Source: a virus. From it: a stretch of DNA of 34,560 nt. Below the pieces are notes generated by a model, which was given only the letters and a program-made list of their open reading frames with translations, searched no databases and was not told the DNA's origin. The position numbers were made by a program, and so were the translations under genes. Shown piece by piece: positions 1,840 to 12,510 of the stretch (its first letter is position 1; every line of letters starts with the position of its first letter). The DNA is taken from positions 1-34,560 of the IMG/VR virus record IMGVR_UViG_3300024520_000272. The stretch is one strand, 5' to 3'.

Positions 1840-2118
1840 CTAAAGCTCCCAGTTTATTTTTGGTGGATTGTCAAAAAGACTCTTATTGAAAACTCGTAAT
1901 TCTGCCCCAGTAAAAGTTTCCAGTTTTTCAAGATAGACATTATAAATATTAATATCATTCTTTAAGTTCTTGCCCACCCATTCTAAAAGCTCGTCTATCT
2001 TATCGTGATCTATTTTTGGATAAGGGTCAGATACTCCTATACCTGCTATATCAACTGGGTTCATTTTCTTCTCCAGATTAGCAAGTCGTCTATCAACATT
2101 CTTTTTATCTTTATTCAT
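1840..2118 (-). CDS. hypothetical protein, 92 aa; first gene of leftward cluster
   Basis: The start ATG at 2118 follows AGGAAA on the minus strand. The N-terminus is basic (MNKDKKNVDRRLANLEKKM) and probably helical, and the remainder is acidic. It is the promoter-proximal gene of the leftward cluster, facing the rightward cluster across the divergent region 2119-2272. No family recognised. Confidence 0.7.
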   Translation of the reverse strand: MNKDKKNVDRRLANLEKKMNPVDIAGIGVSDPYPKIDHDKIDELLEWVGKNLKNDINIYNVYLEKLETFTGAELRVFNKSLFDNPPKINWEL

Positions 2119-2272: not shown

Positions 2273-2710
2273 ATGAATGAAGCTCATCAAATATCAAAAC
2301 AAAAATTGATAGAGAATAAAATAGGTTTCTGTATGTTTGATTTAGATACAGCAAAATCTGTTGTTATAGATTGTACCGAAGATTTAAAAATAGAATCCTT
2401 ATGTCATTCAGACGGGGAACTAGATAATGACGGCCATAATCTATTGGTAAAAATAAACAACTCTGAATACAAAGACGCATATATGTTTATGGCGTCTGTA
2501 GACTATCAAGACTTTGAAGAAGATTTCTATGGCCAATCTTTAAGGCAGATCAAAAACAGCCCCGACCATTACGAAACACATTCCAGAGACTATGTTGAAA
2601 AGTTAGTAATAGGTTTTATAAACAAAAATCAAATACTCGCTCAATATGGAAAAGACAGCGAAGGAATATTTCAAGTAGATTATATAGTTAAGGAGAGCAA
2701 CAATGAATAA
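2273..2710 (+). CDS. hypothetical protein, 145 aa; first gene of rightward cluster
   Basis: A strong AAAGGAGAAAATAA site precedes the ATG. The protein is soluble and acidic, beginning MNEAHQISKQKLIENK. It ends by overlapping the next gene by eight bases (ATGAATAA), with an AAGGAG site just before that overlap. No family recognised. Confidence 0.75.
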   Translation: MNEAHQISKQKLIENKIGFCMFDLDTAKSVVIDCTEDLKIESLCHSDGELDNDGHNLLVKINNSEYKDAYMFMASVDYQDFEEDFYGQSLRQIKNSPDHYETHSRDYVEKLVIGFINKNQILAQYGKDSEGIFQVDYIVKESNNE

Positions 2711-2906
2711 ATGGCAACAAGATACTTGGGCGGATATAGAAAACGAAGAAGGAGAATTGGTAGATGCTAATCTCTGGACGTGTGATGTATCTGGCCGACA
2801 ATACATTTCTTTTTATTCGACCAGTAGAAACAATAAAGGATTCTTAGAGACAGATACTTCTGTGGTCTTAGCAACCTTTAAAGTAATTCTCGAAGAGAAA
2901 GAATGA
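2703..2906 (+). CDS. hypothetical acidic protein, 67 aa
   Basis: It starts inside the end of the preceding gene behind AAGGAGAGCAACA. The sequence (MNKWQQDTWADIENEEGELV, then a beta-rich region) is acidic and soluble, with one Cys. No recognised family. Likely early and translationally coupled to its neighbours. Confidence 0.7.
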   Translation: MNKWQQDTWADIENEEGELVDANLWTCDVSGRQYISFYSTSRNNKGFLETDTSVVLATFKVILEEKE

Positions 2907-2990
2907 ATGGAATTTTTATTATTAATTATGGCAATACTTTTGTATGTGCTAGACAGTTCGCAAGAAAGCGAGGAGAACGAAGATGAATAA
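2907..2990 (+). CDS. predicted 27-aa membrane microprotein
   Basis: The frame MEFLLLIMAILLYVLDSSQE... encodes one hydrophobic helix (residues 2-15) and an acidic tail ending SEENEDE. It fills the gap between its two neighbours and carries in its last codons the ribosome-binding site and start of the next gene. A second open frame, ATG 2903 to stop 2986 (MNGIFIINYGNTFVCARQ...), overlaps it and is coupled to the upstream stop by ATGA. I cannot tell from sequence which is made. The membrane-anchor version looks more protein-like. Confidence 0.45.
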   Translation: MEFLLLIMAILLYVLDSSQESEENEDE

Positions 2991-3234
2991 TTTAATAACA
3001 GAAAAAGAATCAATCATATGGGCGAGCGGTCATTTTCAATCTCAACATCTACCAGATGAATATGACGAATGGAAGGATGAGGAATTGAACGAGCATCTTA
3101 TAGACTTTGCTTGGGAACCATTTCAATATCATTCAGCCGATCAAATTTGGGATTTCATACTAGGTCTTGCATTTGATTTTAGAGAAACTTTTAACAGAAA
3201 AATAAAGGAGAACGAAGATGAAACAGGATACTAA
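2983..3234 (+). CDS. hypothetical protein, 83 aa
   Basis: The start lies in the first copy of the GGAGAACGAAGATGA cassette. The protein is rich in Trp, Asp and Glu (MNNLITEKESIIWASG, then DEYDEWKDEELNEHL) and appears helical and soluble. It reads through the second cassette copy as KENEDETGY. No family recognised. Confidence 0.7.
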   Translation: MNNLITEKESIIWASGHFQSQHLPDEYDEWKDEELNEHLIDFAWEPFQYHSADQIWDFILGLAFDFRETFNRKIKENEDETGY

Positions 3235-3418
3235 TCAAGAAAGCGTAAACTTTTTATTCACTCATCAAGGCAAAGAGTATGAGATTGTGCTTGATGATGA
3301 GGGTAAATATCTAAGAGTTATTAGATGTGAACCAGACGATAACGAAAATATTACTTGGGAGTATGGAGAAGTAGTATTTGAATCAACAATTAATTTAAAG
3401 GAGAACGAAGATGAGTAA
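3218..3418 (+). CDS. hypothetical acidic protein, 66 aa
   Basis: It begins in the second cassette copy (3207-3221) and ends in the third as KENEDE-stop. The core is beta-rich (KEYEIVLDDEGKYLRVIRCE). It is very acidic. A DNA-mimic role is conceivable, as for other small acidic phage proteins, but nothing in the sequence proves it. Confidence 0.7.
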   Translation: MKQDTNQESVNFLFTHQGKEYEIVLDDEGKYLRVIRCEPDDNENITWEYGEVVFESTINLKENEDE

Positions 3419-3578
3419 AACTATGTGTTGCTCTGTTTGTAAGCAAGATAATATTTCTTGGCGAGTATGGGCAGATGAATTAAATAATGTTAATGGCAGT
3501 TGCGAAGATAAATTTGTTTATTGTGATAATTGCGAAGATGAAACTACAGCTATTTTTAAGGAAACCGAAGATGAATAA
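3411..3578 (+). CDS. zinc-ribbon-like microprotein, 55 aa
   Basis: This 55-codon frame begins MSKTMCCSVCKQDN and ends FKETEDE. Two Cys pairs, CCSVC near residues 6-10 and CDNC near 38-41, fit a small zinc ribbon. The start sits in the third cassette copy (3400-3414) and the end in the fourth (3560-3574), so it belongs to the same chain as its neighbours. The overlapping longer frame starting at 3487 is out of phase here. Confidence 0.65.
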   Translation: MSKTMCCSVCKQDNISWRVWADELNNVNGSCEDKFVYCDNCEDETTAIFKETEDE

Positions 3579-3702
3579 AGTAATTATAGAATTAGAATTT
3601 GATGATAAGCCGACTGATGCAGATGTTTACAATTATCTGAATGAGTTAATGGATAATGATTGTTTGGGATATGAAATAAAGGAAACCGAAGATGAGGACT
3701 AA
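3571..3702 (+). CDS. hypothetical acidic protein, 43 aa
   Basis: The start is placed at 3571, in the fourth junction cassette (GGAAACCGAAGATGA), rather than at an upstream in-frame ATG at 3487, because the cassette supplies a ribosome-binding site. The protein is MNKVIIELEFDDKPTDADV... and ends KETEDED. Its last codons form a fifth junction cassette with no gene of any length after it. Its TAA at 3700-3702 overlaps the TAG of the convergent terminase gene. Confidence 0.65.
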   Translation: MNKVIIELEFDDKPTDADVYNYLNELMDNDCLGYEIKETEDED

Positions 3703-4364
3703 TCCTCGTCCTCTTCTCCAGCTTCTTTAGGCAAAGGTCTAGCCCTACTTTTTTTCTTAACAACTTTCTCTTCAACAATCTCCCCGACCTCTATTTCCTC
3801 AGATCCCGACTTCCCCGACTTGTCTGCAATTTCGACTCCCGACTTATGTTCAATGGCCTGCTTCCCGAGTAGATCCGCTAGCCTTCTTTCAACTTCTCCC
3901 CGACTCATTTGATCTACCTTCCCATGCAATACTTCCCGACGATCGACAATTAAGCCCCCGACTTTTAAAAGTAAATTCTGGGCGTTAATTGCCGCCGTAA
4001 AGTTTCCTTGCGACCAGGCATCATCTCTTAGCTTATACAAGTCCTCGACTGCTCCCTCATGCGTAAGCTCAAACTTCTTCTTGGCTTCGCCCATCAGTCT
4101 TTCGTATTCCCGATACACATGCTGGTACTTCCCGTTAGGCCCCATGTACCGACTAATAACTTTTGGATTCTTAAACCCAGCCTTCTTTGCCGCTTCTGCA
4201 AATGTAAGAGTAGGATCGTTGACTGCATTCCAGACTAACAAACGCTGACGCTTGGTTAGATTCTTCTCGTTATGATTCATATACTCAACAGGCATATCCT
4301 CTGCATCTTCTAATACAGGCTCAACTTTCACCTTTGCTCTTATCCTTGATTCGTCCTTGCTCAT
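3699..4364 (-). CDS. terminase small subunit (TerS) candidate
   Basis: Predicted DNA-recognition subunit of the packaging motor. The 221-aa protein has an N-terminal HTH-like region (about residues 36-70, NLTKRQRLLVWNAV then FAEAAKKAGFKN). A central helical part includes LLLKVGGLIVDRREVLHGKV and MSRGEVERRLADLLG, a layout I know from phage small terminases. The tail is charged and ends EEDED. The ATG at 4364 follows AAGGAGAAAG. No large terminase is adjacent, which is unusual. The start lies inside the end of a 56-aa frame. Its TAG is interleaved with the convergent TAA. Alternative: another HTH DNA-binding protein. Confidence 0.65.
   Translation of the reverse strand: MSKDESRIRAKVKVEPVLEDAEDMPVEYMNHNEKNLTKRQRLLVWNAVNDPTLTFAEAAKKAGFKNPKVISRYMGPNGKYQHVYREYERLMGEAKKKFELTHEGAVEDLYKLRDDAWSQGNFTAAINAQNLLLKVGGLIVDRREVLHGKVDQMSRGEVERRLADLLGKQAIEHKSGVEIADKSGKSGSEEIEVGEIVEEKVVKKKSRARPLPKEAGEEDED
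3783..3962 (-). repeat. GTCGGG word cluster inside the TerS gene
   Basis: Seven exact CCCGAC words on the given strand (GTCGGG on the coding strand) start at 3783, 3805, 3814, 3838, 3899, 3935 and 3957. Near-matches follow at 3864 (CCCGAG) and 4109 (CCCGAT). They fall in all three codon phases: Val-Gly twice, Lys-Ser-Gly three times, and Arg-centred (CGG codon) twice. A simple amino-acid repeat therefore does not explain them. Two more exact copies are in the left-edge gene at 299 and 324. Confidence 0.75.
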
Positions 4365-4491
4365 CTTTCTCCTTATAGCTAATAAGCCGTCCGTTAAAAT
4401 ACCTAACTAATTCTACTACATCTGGTCTTTCTAGCAAAACAACGATTTCCTTGGGCAAAACCTTGCTGCATTTTTCTGTTAATTTATACAT
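4321..4491 (-). CDS. hypothetical protein, 56 aa, overlapping TerS start
   Basis: A 56-codon frame (MYKLTEKCSKVLPKEIVVLL...) with a good GGAGAAGAT-ATG site at 4491. It overlaps the TerS start by 44 bases in another frame. The sequence looks like a short helical domain with a basic, Lys-rich tail. Its ribosome-binding site and position just downstream of the promoter region support it. No family recognised. Confidence 0.55.
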   Translation of the reverse strand: MYKLTEKCSKVLPKEIVVLLERPDVVELVRYFNGRLISYKEKDEQGRIKDKSKGES

Positions 4492-4503
4492 ATCTTCTCC
4501 TAC

Positions 4504-4821
4504 TTTTGTCAGAGCCTATGACAAAACTCTGACAAAACTCCAAACGTGATAGAGTAAGGGTATACAGAGTAATATATATGTCTATATATATAGTTTTGTC
4601 ATACTTTATCTTACCTACCCTTTTCTTTTTCATTTTTAGGTACATTTGTAGGGTTATTTTAAGGGTACCCTGACAATATGACAAAACGCCTAAACCCTAC
4701 TGCTATAACCTTTTCTCTTGTCAGAGGTTTCTGACACTCTGACAAAACTACCCTGTTTTTAACTAAATATAGACAGTTTCGACCTATAAGGGGGTACTTT
4801 TGTCAGAAAAGCCTGACAAAA
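4504..4821. repeat. TGACAAAA repeat array in intergenic region
   Basis: The gene-free stretch 4492-4821 contains eight exact copies of TGACAAAA. Those reading rightward are at 4519, 4530, 4679, 4740 and 4814; those reading leftward (TTTTGTCA) start at 4504, 4594 and 4798. Shorter relatives are TGACAA at 4671, TTGTCA at 4718 and TGACA at 4732. Two pairs form inverted repeats, 4504-4526 (7-base spacer) and 4798-4821 (8-base spacer). A third, TGTCAGA-ggtt-TCTGACA, is around 4719-4736. Candidate roles are operators, origin iterons or terminase-binding (cos/pac) sites. Confidence 0.8.
4656..4684 (-). promoter_or_regulatory. putative sigma70-type promoter for TerS unit
   Basis: On the minus strand, TTGTCA (4684-4679) is followed by a 17-base spacer and TAAAAT (4661-4656). 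Each box differs from consensus at one position. The -35 box is the core of a TGACAAAA repeat, so a protein bound to the repeats would occlude or recruit polymerase here. It points toward the 56-aa gene and TerS. Confidence 0.5.
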
Positions 4822-5085
4822 CTATTCGGGATCTTTTTCCTCAGGTGTGAAGATAATTTCTTTCTCCATACCAAACTCTGAATTAAGTATGTGATCTATC
4901 TTAGATATACCGTCTTCGACTGTCTTTGCGTAATTAATAGTTTCAGTTACGCCGTAAGTAAAGATCAACAAAGCCGTAAACTCTGCGTCTGCTCCTCTGG
5001 ATATAAAATCTTCAAAGAGACTATCAAGTCTGCGTCGACCTTCCTCGAGTGTTGGTGGGCCTTTCTCCATTTTAAGTATCTTCAT
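4822..5085 (-). CDS. hypothetical protein, 87 aa
   Basis: A soluble, largely helical acidic protein: MKILKMEKGPPTLEEGRRRL and later FTALLIFTYGVTETINYAK. Its stop abuts the repeat array on its 3' side. An in-frame Met at residue 6 is an alternative start. No family recognised. Confidence 0.65.
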   Translation of the reverse strand: MKILKMEKGPPTLEEGRRRLDSLFEDFISRGADAEFTALLIFTYGVTETINYAKTVEDGISKIDHILNSEFGMEKEIIFTPEEKDPE

Positions 5086-6469: not shown

Positions 6470-6732
6470 AGGAGTTAAAGAAAGAGCGAGAGGTTTTGGT
6501 TGGAGCTACGTTTTATGCAGATAATGTAGATCCAAACGCTGAAGGTTTGCCAGACTTATTGCGTGATAAGTTTGAGCAAGAGGTTGATAGAAACAAAATA
6601 TTTTTTAGTATTTGTATTCCAGGCGACAACAACAAAATAAATTTAGAAGAAGTAGTTAAAGATAACAACGACCTAAAGCATCAAGTTAAGTTCTGGCAAG
6701 AGCTGTACTTAAAAGCAATAAATCCAAAATGA
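6466..6732 (+). CDS. hypothetical protein, 88 aa
   Basis: It begins MKELKKEREVLVGATFYADN, overlaps the upstream stop (ATGA) and is coupled to the HNH gene by ATGA. It is charged, with a C-terminal helix (NDLKHQVKFWQELYLK). No family recognised. Confidence 0.65.
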   Translation: MKELKKEREVLVGATFYADNVDPNAEGLPDLLRDKFEQEVDRNKIFFSICIPGDNNKINLEEVVKDNNDLKHQVKFWQELYLKAINPK

Positions 6733-7250
6733 AAAAAACAAGAAAATGCAGAGTATGTCAGAAGGTTAAGCCTTTAGAAGCTAAATACTTTAATAACAGA
6801 TATGAGATTACTTCTACCCCACCTTTTAGATGGGACTGTAAGGTTTGTTACAACACTAACAAAAGAACCAACCCAAAATATTTTTTAAGTAAGATGCTGC
6901 AACATGCAAGAAATAGATCTGAGTTATATAACAGAGACTTTAATATAACTGTTGATGATATTAGTATTCCAGAGAAGTGTCCTGTCTTGGGTATAAAATT
7001 AGAACATGGTTGGAAAGATGACGAGAGCTGTCCTACCTTAGAGCGGATAGATAACAACGAAGGTTATGTTAAAGGAAACGTAATGGTTGTATCGGCTTTG
7101 GCAAACAGGATAAAGAACTCTGCTACCTATCAGCAGATACTAACCGTTGGATGGTTTTATAAGAAACTCTATCGACAAAAACTTAGATCGGTATTAAAGA
7201 CCAGGATAAGAAATTTAAAAAATAATTTACAAAAGGAGAAGATAAAATGA
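6729..7250 (+). CDS. HNH-family endonuclease with zinc ribbon
   Basis: Predicted DNA endonuclease, 173 aa. Cys pairs CRVC (residues 7-10) and CKVC (37-40) form a zinc knuckle. A later segment has CPVLGIKLE (84-92), then LERIDNNEGYVKGNVMVVS (104-122) and a final ALANRIKNSAT. This is the D-N-x-x-G-Y-x-x-G-N-V signature of a phage HNH subgroup. The C-terminus is strongly basic, as expected for DNA contact. It may be a free-standing homing-type nuclease or a replication/packaging nuclease. ATGA overlaps on both sides integrate it in the operon. Confidence 0.8.
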   Translation: MKKTRKCRVCQKVKPLEAKYFNNRYEITSTPPFRWDCKVCYNTNKRTNPKYFLSKMLQHARNRSELYNRDFNITVDDISIPEKCPVLGIKLEHGWKDDESCPTLERIDNNEGYVKGNVMVVSALANRIKNSATYQQILTVGWFYKKLYRQKLRSVLKTRIRNLKNNLQKEKIK

Positions 7251-9533: not shown

Positions 9534-9828
9534 ACCAACACGTTGCTACCCATTCAAAATAGAAACAGGCGGTTTTATGTTTATCCCATATGATTATACG
9601 GAAGCAGAATTAAGTTTTACGGGATGCAGAGAGGATTTAATAAAAATAGAAGACTACTGGGATTCAATAGGAAATCCTAAGTACGATGAAAATATGTCAT
9701 TTAACGACCACATGTTAATGATGTATGACAATTTACGGTATTGGCCTTCGCCGATGCTTAATGATAAAGTCGTGCAAACGATTATTTTGGAGTATGAATA
9801 TGATAATAAAAGAACTAGAAGAATTTAA
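9520..9828 (+). CDS. hypothetical protein, 102 aa
   Basis: It starts within the last codons of the helicase gene (MQIGKPTRCYPFK) and overlaps the start of the nuclease gene by 29 bases. No good ribosome-binding site precedes 9520; an internal Met (MFIPYDYTEAELS) is an alternative start. The protein is soluble, rich in Tyr, Asp and Met. Weakly supported but it fills a gap in a gapless operon. Confidence 0.5.
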   Translation: MQIGKPTRCYPFKIETGGFMFIPYDYTEAELSFTGCREDLIKIEDYWDSIGNPKYDENMSFNDHMLMMYDNLRYWPSPMLNDKVVQTIILEYEYDNKRTRRI

Positions 9829-10630
9829 ATCTGAGCAAAAAGGTGACACCTTAGTGTTCGCAGATATACCTAACCCTGTTTACCATTCAGGTGTTGGGAT
9901 AAGCAGTAGCAAGATTAGAGCCTTTGGTAAATCTCAACTGCATGCAATTGAGAAAGTCCAGGAAACTACCCCTGCAATGAACTTCGGTACAGCCGCTCAC
10001 GCTTTACTGGTAGAAGGGGAAAAAGAGTTTAATGATACGGTAGCTGTTGTTATGGGATCTCCCTATACAAACGCTAACAAAGAACTCAAGAAGGAATACG
10101 AAGAGAGAGGTCTGACTGTTATTAAAGAGAGTGAGATGAAGGCCATCAAAGGTATGAAAGAACATATGATTGAAGAAGGCAATATTTACCTAAACGCAGA
10201 AGGCAAAGTTGCAGAAGCCAGCTTCTATTGGTATGAAGGTGAGGTTCTTTGTAAGTGCAGACCAGATGTTATCTGTCCTCCTGTCCAAAGTCCTTATCCA
10301 GACAATGCTATATGTGTGGTTGATTATAAAACTACTCAGTCTTGCGACCCAGTAGAGTTTGCTTATTCAGTTAAGAAGTATGGCTACGATATGCAAGCAG
10401 CTTGGTACAGAAGAGGTATGGAAGCGGCAGGATTTAAACTTGACGAGTTTGTGTTTGTTGCTCAAGAGAAAGCTTACCCATACGCATCCAAAGTATTTAT
10501 TATCTCAGAAGAGCAAATGAATCTTGGTTGGGACAAAATGGAAGGCTTTTTAGAGTTGTACAAAAATCATTCAGAAGGCGGTCATCTGTCTGTTTATAAT
10601 TCTCCCAATATTGTTACCTTGTCTCTATAA
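9800..10630 (+). CDS. PD-(D/E)XK exonuclease, RecE/DUF3799-like
   Basis: Predicted DNA exonuclease working with a single-strand annealing protein. The start is placed at 9800, where GGAG lies seven bases before the ATG, giving 276 aa. The RecB-type nuclease motifs are in order: FGTAAHALL (His67), CRPDVI (Asp156), VVDYKTT (Asp175, Lys177) and YGYDMQAAWY (Gln199, Tyr203). These match the catalytic D, D-x-K and Q-x-x-x-Y elements of phage RecE-like exonucleases. The Sak4-like annealing candidate lies 1.2 kb away on the other strand rather than next to it. Confidence 0.8.
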   Translation: MIIKELEEFKSEQKGDTLVFADIPNPVYHSGVGISSSKIRAFGKSQLHAIEKVQETTPAMNFGTAAHALLVEGEKEFNDTVAVVMGSPYTNANKELKKEYEERGLTVIKESEMKAIKGMKEHMIEEGNIYLNAEGKVAEASFYWYEGEVLCKCRPDVICPPVQSPYPDNAICVVDYKTTQSCDPVEFAYSVKKYGYDMQAAWYRRGMEAAGFKLDEFVFVAQEKAYPYASKVFIISEEQMNLGWDKMEGFLELYKNHSEGGHLSVYNSPNIVTLSL

Positions 10631-11284: not shown

Positions 11285-11797
11285 TTACAAGCTCGGTTTA
11301 GCTGGGGCCTTAGCCTCAGAAGTTCCTTCTTTTACCCAAGCTGGGCTGTCGTCTGCTTGTTTAGGCGACATTTTTTCTAAAGGTTTGAAAGCCTTGATGT
11401 TATTTTTATCATCAGGGTAGTCAGCGTTAGTGCTTTTTTCTATTCCAAAAGAACAGATCACTTTATTTCCGACCAACTCACCAGCATTCGAAGGTGGGTT
11501 ATCTTTTCTTCCAACAGCTTTAACCAAACTAGAAAATTTTCTAGAGGCTATTTCTCTGACAAGCTCTTGCTTCTCTGAGTCATTATTGGTGTACCAAAGA
11601 TTAAGGTTGTCTCTTGCGATCCATCCTTTATATTTCTCACCACATACTTTAACTTCTAACTTGAGATATTCATTGCCCGCTGCGGAAGTCGTCTTCTCGC
11701 ACGCGCTTACCTCTGTTAAATAGTCACCTTCTGGAATAGTAGATTCTCCACTATTACTACTTTCAAAATCAAACTTGACGTCTGCAAAATCGCTCAT
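11285..11797 (-). CDS. DUF669-family recombination/ssDNA-binding protein
   Basis: 170 aa, beginning MSDFADVKFDFESSNSGEST. IPEGDYLTEV (about 20-29), EYLKLEVKVCGEKYKGW and a following LNLWYTNN are the DUF669 pattern, and the C-terminus is Pro/Ala/Lys-rich and probably disordered. DUF669 proteins regularly follow Sak4-type ATPases in phages and are thought to bind single-stranded DNA or assist annealing. The start overlaps the upstream Sak4-like stop by one base (TAATG), so the two are translated together. Confidence 0.75.
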   Translation of the reverse strand: MSDFADVKFDFESSNSGESTIPEGDYLTEVSACEKTTSAAGNEYLKLEVKVCGEKYKGWIARDNLNLWYTNNDSEKQELVREIASRKFSSLVKAVGRKDNPPSNAGELVGNKVICSFGIEKSTNADYPDDKNNIKAFKPLEKMSPKQADDSPAWVKEGTSEAKAPAKPSL

Positions 11798-12510
11798 TAC
11801 TTTTCTCCTTTTGTAAATCCAAGCTTATTAATAATATATGTCAAGTTAGGCTCTTCAAAAGAATCTAGCTTGCCACTCCTATCCTTGGCGATGTAATTAT
11901 CTCCAAGAACTGTTTGCAACCAACGATTGGTTACTTTCTTCCCTTCATCATTCTCTTCAGTGAAAGTCCTAAGACATAACACCTCATCGAAGAAGTAAGG
12001 AATTTGGGTAGGTAGTTTTGCACCAACCATCATAGGCTGATAGTGGAACATACCTGTTGACTCATCTCTGAGTTTGTCTTCTTTAGCGACAAAAATAACG
12101 TGCATCTTTAGATCTCTAAATCTACGCATCGTTCTTGTCATTACTGTGATGACCTCACCGTAAGCTTGCCTGGGATCTTTAGACCTTGCTTTTTCTTGTG
12201 CTAGTAAAAGTTCAGACATTTCGGTTACGCTATCTAAACAGATAGTATCGTAATCGAGTTTGCCATTCTCTAGCATCTCAGCAATTTCTTCAATCTCATA
12301 CGCTTCTTTAACTTCAATAGCGGTAACGTTTACTGCGTCCTTAATAGACAACAGACCAGCTTCCATACTAATAATTAAAGTTTTTCCAGGTGCGGTTGCA
12401 AGTGAAGTTGTTTTACCAGCTCCAGCAGCCCCATACATTAAAATCTTAGCACCTTGATTTAAAACCAAGTCGCTAGGGCTTTTAATTCTACTCAATATAT
12501 CATCAGACAT
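11797..12510 (-). CDS. Sak4-like RecA-fold ATPase (single-strand annealing)
   Basis: 237 aa. Walker A is GAAGAGKT (27-34), a Walker B-type strand is DTICLDS (about 88-94), and IISMEAGLL follows the first strand, as in Sak4/AAA_24 phage proteins with a RecA core. Known Sak4 proteins promote single-strand annealing, usually with a DUF669 or SSB partner, which is the gene immediately downstream here. The ATG at 12510 has AAAAAGGAGAAGATAA before it. It forms a short leftward two-gene unit divergent from the HTH/primase unit. Confidence 0.8.
   Translation of the reverse strand: MSDDILSRIKSPSDLVLNQGAKILMYGAAGAGKTTSLATAPGKTLIISMEAGLLSIKDAVNVTAIEVKEAYEIEEIAEMLENGKLDYDTICLDSVTEMSELLLAQEKARSKDPRQAYGEVITVMTRTMRRFRDLKMHVIFVAKEDKLRDESTGMFHYQPMMVGAKLPTQIPYFFDEVLCLRTFTEENDEGKKVTNRWLQTVLGDNYIAKDRSGKLDSFEEPNLTYIINKLGFTKGEK

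Follow-up and report, generated by a model that had tools for sequence, protein, structure and literature searches.

Dual-coding junctions as probable short-homology exchange sites in a mini-gene array of an uncultured marine phage

The sequence studied is a virus record of 34,560 bases from IMG/VR (IMGVR_UViG_3300024520_000272), belonging to an uncultured marine phage, and its whole length is called the window here. We found no close named phage relative of the window at the DNA level, and no relative of its terminase-like gene in the sequenced host genomes searched. From 2273 to 3702, a rightward chain of seven short and mostly overlapping genes runs up to a convergent gene at 3699-4364. The genes, the repeated junctions between them and the end of the array are the following:

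2273..2710, + strand: gene that opens the rightward array, 145 aa (open reading frame with a Shine-Dalgarno site)
2703..2906, + strand: array cassette, 67 aa, family 7
2907..2990, + strand: 27-aa single-TM-like cassette MEFLLLIMAILLYVLDSSQESEENEDE (open reading frame translation)
2970..2986, + strand: junction 1, GAGGAGAACGAAGATGA (repeat search)
2983..3234, + strand: cassette 1, 83 aa (open reading frame)
3205..3221, + strand: junction 2, AAGGAGAACGAAGATGA (repeat search)
3218..3418, + strand: cassette 2, 66 aa (open reading frame)
3398..3414, + strand: junction 3, AAGGAGAACGAAGATGA (repeat search)
3411..3578, + strand: cassette 3, 55 aa, F1 family (CxxC pairs, zinc-ribbon-like by eye)
3558..3574, + strand: junction 4, AAGGAAACCGAAGATGA (repeat search)
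3571..3702, + strand: cassette 4, 43 aa, F3 family (open reading frame and family clustering)
3679..3695, + strand: junction 5, AAGGAAACCGAAGATGA, the 3' array end (repeat search and comparison with relatives)
3688..3707, no strand: array terminus hairpin GATGAGGACTAATCCTCGTC (fold; recurs in many relatives)
3699..4364, - strand: terminase-small-subunit-like gene, convergent, a conserved anchor beside the arrays (similarity)

The product of the convergent gene is weakly similar (31-33% identity) to the terminase small subunit of the Pelagibacter phages HTVC027P and HTVC023P. The 2273-2710 protein matched no Pfam or PHROG family, and a scan of IMG/VR for relatives of this protein and of the 2983-3234 protein retrieved none. 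Relatives of the 2703-2906 protein (ELVDANLWTCD) are present in other arrays, and the start of its gene carries a related junction, AAGGAGAGCAACAATGA, coding the KESNNE tail of the preceding gene. An earlier reading of the sequence alone had placed the array at the junctions themselves, which do span 2970-3695, but the array begins farther left, the genes at 2273-2710, 2703-2906 and 2907-2990 being part of the same chain. Two cassette proteins tried against named phages were absent from them, and the scanned proteins gave almost no family matches that would point to cassette functions; the exception is one cassette family that corresponds to DUF3310 and mostly lies alongside junctions of dialect D (see below). 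Very short single-TM-like cassettes recur (loci L039, L012, L096 and L132, and 2907-2990 in the window), often as the last one before the terminus, and the arrays of L039, L012 and L096 end with such cassettes similar to that of the window.

The junction occurs in five copies, all on the + strand, as AGGAGAACGAAGATGA (three copies) and AGGAAACCGAAGATGA (two copies). It had been described as one and the same 15-base sequence repeated five times, which holds for the number and the positions of the copies, while two variants rather than identical copies are present. With up to two mismatches these five are the only matches in the whole 34.5-kb record, and with up to three there are six matches against 0.39 expected, a number reached in 0 of 100 shuffles. 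The 46 other listed gene starts of the window all differ from the junction consensus at 3-12 positions. Read in the upstream frame, the junction codes E-N-E-D-E or E-T-E-D-E, and the other frame provides a Shine-Dalgarno site, a spacer of 6-7 nt and the ATG of the next gene, which lies within the overlap. The ORF overlaps thus agree with the sequence-only reading that each next gene starts behind a Shine-Dalgarno site inside the junction. The dual coding is also as that reading described it, although the proposed K-E-N/T-E-D-E ending is not general: the upstream genes end in SEENEDE, KENEDETGY, KENEDE, KETEDE and KETEDED, each followed by the stop codon, so that the first copy codes EENEDE and the second upstream gene extends three residues beyond the motif. 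Junctions 1-4 join unrelated genes of 43-83 aa. Among 138 distinct junctions from 25 loci, a set that had been selected by the motif itself, conservation is limited to positions -12 to +3 around the ATG, and the low information at -35 to -16 indicates no conserved upstream element. No recurrent inverted repeat was found at the junctions. In 10 longer records, the junction of the type present in the window (dialect A) is confined to the array.

At least 122 stretches in IMG/VR encode a relative of the terminase-small-subunit-like gene, and the array was readable in about 80 of these loci. The junction site is kept beside this gene, while the cassettes and their order vary, with 2 to 14 mini-genes at the array position and the same junction between them. 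The 138 genes fall into 76 protein families, 29 of them shared, and most neighbouring gene bodies are unrelated; related neighbours are few (e.g., two F13 genes in L101). The largest family, F0, has 11 members and 11 recorded classes of right neighbour, and the F1 family (6 members, including 3411-3578 of the window) has five distinct neighbours on its left side and six on its right. The F3 family of cassette 4 is also found in L019, L107 and L148, with other neighbours there. Cassette 3 of the window is 97.7% identical to its counterpart in L204 over 3399-3575, i.e., from junction 3 to junction 4, while the neighbouring core is 80% identical. A cassette body that is 100% identical in L024 and L148 lies in phages whose terminase proteins are 53% identical, and L019 and L101 differ by a one-cassette indel of 184 bp at a junction, with flanks 99.5-100% identical on both sides.

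The borders of these exchanges were resolved by comparing near-identical cassettes with different neighbours. In 29 pairs that are at least 80% identical near the start and have different left neighbours, identity is 0.96-0.97 beyond +12, and to the left of -12 it is 0.27-0.39 (unrelated pairs give 0.30-0.44). In 30 pairs with the same left and a different right cassette, it is 0.93-0.97 up to -12 and 0.25-0.34 beyond +8. Identity therefore drops to background inside the junction of about 16 bp on both sides, and because this loss is so abrupt, breakpoints within the junction are required. Besides, of 316 blast alignment ends located in arrays, 201 are no more than 10 bp away from a junction, where 56 would be expected from coverage. 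Related phages thus bear out the proposed comparison: junctions are conserved, cassette content and order differ strongly, and the fixed gene content with non-conserved junctions that would have spoken against exchange was not seen in the approximately 80 related loci. At the level of the compared sequences, these results show that cassettes have been gained, lost and re-ordered among related phages with breakpoints inside the junctions. We consider it unlikely that metagenome chimaeras formed at short repeats produced an apparent shuffling of this kind, given that contigs of different samples carry the same multi-cassette arrays (e.g., L090, L096, L136/L137).

The fifth copy had been interpreted as the trace of a lost cassette. 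Its ATG opens just a 12-codon ORF that runs antisense to the convergent gene. Many relatives with different last cassettes share the array end GAAGATGAGGACTAATCCTCGTC, in which the stop of that cassette overlaps the terminase-side stop within a hairpin (-14.9 kcal/mol for the window terminus). The homology of the window to nine relatives begins at 3672-3690, that is, at junction 5. Because the same end follows different last cassettes in many relatives, we reject the remnant of a lost cassette; the fifth copy is the fixed terminus of the array.

The reading frame at the junctions follows a rule. The overlap length is almost always 8, 11, 14, 17 or 20 nt, corresponding to a single frame, to which 87 of the short overlaps conform. 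A stop within 20 nt in the upstream frame is found in 98% of the cassettes and in 47% of the ordinary genes of the window, and the early stop at the 5' end of a cassette is usually ATGA[A/G]TAA. Since the stop of the upstream frame sits in the next cassette, each cassette is built to close any gene that precedes it. With this early stop on each one, any two cassettes that share a dialect can be joined in frame, the upstream gene being closed and translation coupled.

Other subclades carry other junctions at the same place: GGAGAAAAGCTAATG (tail KEKS, TAATG overlap), GGAGCAAGACTAATG (tail KEQD, TAATG overlap), GGAGTCCGACAATG (tail KESDNE), GGAGGTAGCTAATG (tail EEVAN) and GGAGAAGAAAAATGA (tail KGEEK, ATGA overlap). 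Together with the window type (A), these make six natural joint variants, here called dialects, and each one keeps largely to a single frame (the ENEDE frame in A, 64/66; TAATG in C, 42/45, and in E, 19/20; D, 21/22; F, 11/13; ATGA in B, 9/16). Of 49 typed families, 24 occur in two or more dialects, and their last residues vary with the dialect: the same protein body ends in KENEDE, KESDNE, KEKS or KEQD, and the tail of one family reads ...TNPDLKESEDES in A and ...TNPDLKESDNET in D. As the last residues change with the dialect, the tail belongs to the joint and not to the protein. The acidic C-terminal tail is thus unlikely to be a functional protein motif and probably arises as a by-product of the junction.

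On the terminase tree, the dialects form clusters (11 changes against 27.9 when shuffled). Between phages with less than 80% terminase identity, 6 of 16 same-dialect families, and none of 21 cross-dialect ones, contained cassettes that are 90% or more identical (Fisher p=0.003, with genome pairs that are not independent). Twelve C/D arrays contained no A junction at strict settings, and at these settings 60 of the 125 called starts in A-dialect loci match no dialect. The sequence comparisons show that lineages use different dialects, each with its own frame and tail, and that recent cassette sharing stays within a dialect, which suggests that a matching joint is what permits cassettes to be traded. 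Because dialect correlates with terminase lineage, shared ecology or host overlap within a dialect could contribute to this pattern. Over longer times, cassette bodies do pass between dialects by another route, as homologues found in different dialects show. In six loci (L147, L150, L124, L196, L198, L200), two dialects form consecutive blocks of one array, B then A or D then C, as if arrays had fused or had been locally homogenised.

The record also encodes a RusA-like resolvase and the following recombination proteins, of which the RecE-like exonuclease is a candidate partner in the exchange:

6729-7250: endonuclease VII/HNH-like gene
9725..10630, + strand: exonuclease VIII (RecE)-like gene (PHROG 412, E 3.1e-59; DUF3799 PDDEXK-like)
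11285..11797, - strand: single-strand DNA-binding-protein-like gene (PHROG 378, E 4.2e-7)
11797..12510, - strand: Sak4-like single-strand annealing protein, candidate junction recombinase (PHROG 124, E 5e-49; Pfam AAA_24)

An exonuclease and single-strand annealing module (RecE-like, Sak4-like and SSB-like genes) is thus found in one genome, and such recombination genes are typical of many phages. We consider it probable that the locus is a cassette array whose dual-coding junctions of about 16 bp act as short-homology exchange sites that preserve frame and translational coupling. The array is an operon in which unrelated mini-genes of about 30-120 aa run rightward and end against the convergent terminase-small-subunit-like gene, each junction giving the last 4-6 codons of one gene (ENEDE) and the Shine-Dalgarno site, fixed spacer and ATG of the next. 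The junction would serve as the short homology for exchange between co-infecting phages and could also drive deletion or duplication within one array. The RecE-like exonuclease, the SSB and the Sak4-like annealing protein would probably carry out the exchange, selection would retain the in-frame, translated products, and repeated exchange would keep the junctions within an array alike. Sak4 anneals single strands with the help of its SSB (PMC5928155). The minimal efficient pairing segment is 31-34 bp for RecA and 23-27 bp for Red-beta, and phage recombinases of this sort work on short, diverged sequences (PMC3945230). Because the perfect homology of about 16-18 bp lies under the RecA and Red-beta segments, exchange would be infrequent or would depend on relaxed annealing; strong selection acting on rare events may be enough, and copy-choice replication may contribute. 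The earlier proposal that small genes are swapped as modules by recombination at the junctions is therefore upheld as regards junction-bounded swapping, while recombination as the physical mechanism is what we infer from the sequences.

Selection on translation is the alternative that survives best. It would keep the junctions alike as sites for phage or host factors, while cassettes enter by illegitimate recombination and only those that fit the local start signal survive. The junction does lie exactly at the ribosome binding site and start, the dialects track phage lineage, and the start-associated sequences (SAS) of mycobacteriophages and Microbacterium phages share both this position and an unusual conservation (PMC3203893, PMC7302621). 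Nevertheless, a single array can hold two dialects side by side (B then A, D then C), junctions are missing from the other genes of these records, and the abrupt two-sided loss of identity needs breakpoints in the junction, which random breakpoints followed by selection would rarely give; we regard this explanation as unlikely. Tandem duplication of a single ancestral gene and its junction, with later divergence of the bodies and no exchange between phages, would account for the few related neighbours (the two F13 genes of L101), but most neighbours are unrelated (76 families in 138 genes), and bodies at least 90% identical occur in different neighbourhoods and in phages with only 53% terminase identity. 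As the main process it is rejected on these grounds and deemed very improbable, local duplication being possible. Even less probable is a site-specific system of integrase, transposase or homing-endonuclease type with the junction as its target. The boundaries are precise and an endonuclease VII/HNH-like gene is at hand, but no integrase or transposase family was found among the scanned subset of window proteins, and the junction lacks inverted symmetry and varies in sequence between close lineages. The weakest alternative, that the likeness is ordinary ribosome-binding-site similarity made of a Shine-Dalgarno core and an AT-rich spacer, can appeal to AGGAG at many gene starts of the window and in every dialect, but we reject it, and chance convergence with it, in view of the spacer AACGAAG (strongly conserved within A arrays, different in the other dialects and unrelated to the spacers at ordinary starts of the same genome), the same-frame tails and junction-bounded swapping that it does not predict, the shuffle counts, the comparison with other starts, the identity drop at junctions, the uniform frame and the L204 cassette match.

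Beyond exchange at the junctions, the dual-coding junction may be a lineage-specific adapter in an open exchange of mini-genes among marine phages of this group, allowing any two cassettes to be joined in frame with coupled translation, in which the dialect would set the trading partners, act as a barrier to gene flow and be homogenised by concerted evolution. We give this wider reading an even chance of being correct.

Among known systems, the SAS/ESAS of cluster K mycobacteriophages and cluster EF Microbacterium phages are short, conserved, one-orientation repeats (PMC3203893, PMC7302621), with 13-bp SAS consensuses GGGATAGGAGCCC (cluster K; PMC3203893) and GGGAAAGGACCCC (EF; PMC7302621). 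As in our arrays, many small non-structural genes from different families carry the repeat over their ribosome binding site, and its conservation exceeds the need for 16S pairing or the Shine-Dalgarno core. On the other hand, neither GGGATAGGAGCCC nor GGGAAAGGACCCC is matched by AAGGAGAACGAAGATGA or by the other dialects. SAS lie upstream of the start and often have an inverted-repeat extension (ESAS), which the junctions lack, whereas the junction here spans a two-gene overlap and, in a fixed frame, codes the C-terminus of the first gene; it is restricted to one array, exchange breakpoints fall on it, and its dialects differ by lineage. T4-type phages reportedly carry mobile regulatory cassettes (PeSL), promoter/stem-loop repeats between small hypervariable genes, as Arbiol in 2010 and Comeau in 2014, both cited in PMC4503421, are said to have described. 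PeSLs resemble the junctions as repeated short sequences at which gene modules exchange by homology; they are non-coding promoter-terminator units, whereas the junctions are coding and frame-keeping, hold a start and a Shine-Dalgarno site and lie in gene overlaps of 1-20 nt in place of an early promoter and intergenic stem-loop. SAS and PeSLs are the nearest known kinds, each sharing half of the features (the position at the start in SAS, the shuffling at a repeat in PeSLs) and failing another.

Phage mosaicism through relaxed recombination at gene boundaries (PMC3945230) and Sak4 annealing proteins (PMC5499656, PMC5928155) likewise involve gene-sized segments exchanged at short homologies by phage recombinases, and the present record has a Sak4-like gene next to one for an SSB; the difference is that the homology here is a standard repeated dual-coding sequence and not an incidental similarity. 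Integrons also hold arrays of promoterless single-gene cassettes with standard ends, a functional analogy only: no attC-like site was seen, nor an integrase among the scanned subset of proteins, and the ends here are coding overlaps. In a limited literature search, the combination of dual-end coding, a frame rule and exchange-limiting dialects was not found.

It is a long-standing question whether clean single-gene swaps arise at gene borders by short homology or by random breaks and selection. The homology requirement becomes directly measurable here because the breakpoints are visible, repeated and testable, with six natural joint variants. The joints also offer a way to find fast-turnover pools of phage mini-genes, which are likely host-interaction genes, and they supply a rule for interpreting phage ORFs that are very short and overlap.

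Other repeats lie near the array. CCCGAC occurs seven times in 180 bases (3783-3962) inside the terminase-small-subunit-like gene, all copies on the + strand, as are 10 of the 13 copies in the window, which also include copies at 299-329; the nine relatives checked keep 5-8 copies there in the same orientation. This cluster may be a pac site or a Chi-like motif. Seven copies of CTGACAAAACT (up to one mismatch) lie in both orientations at 4501-4824, between the gene 4321-4491 and the gene 4822-5085; they form many inverted repeats and look like an operator or replication iterons. Finally, the leftward small genes at 1552-1836 and 1840-2118 (- strand) share their first 14 bases, ATGAATAAAGATAA, a hint that the other strand may carry exchangeable mini-genes of a second set.
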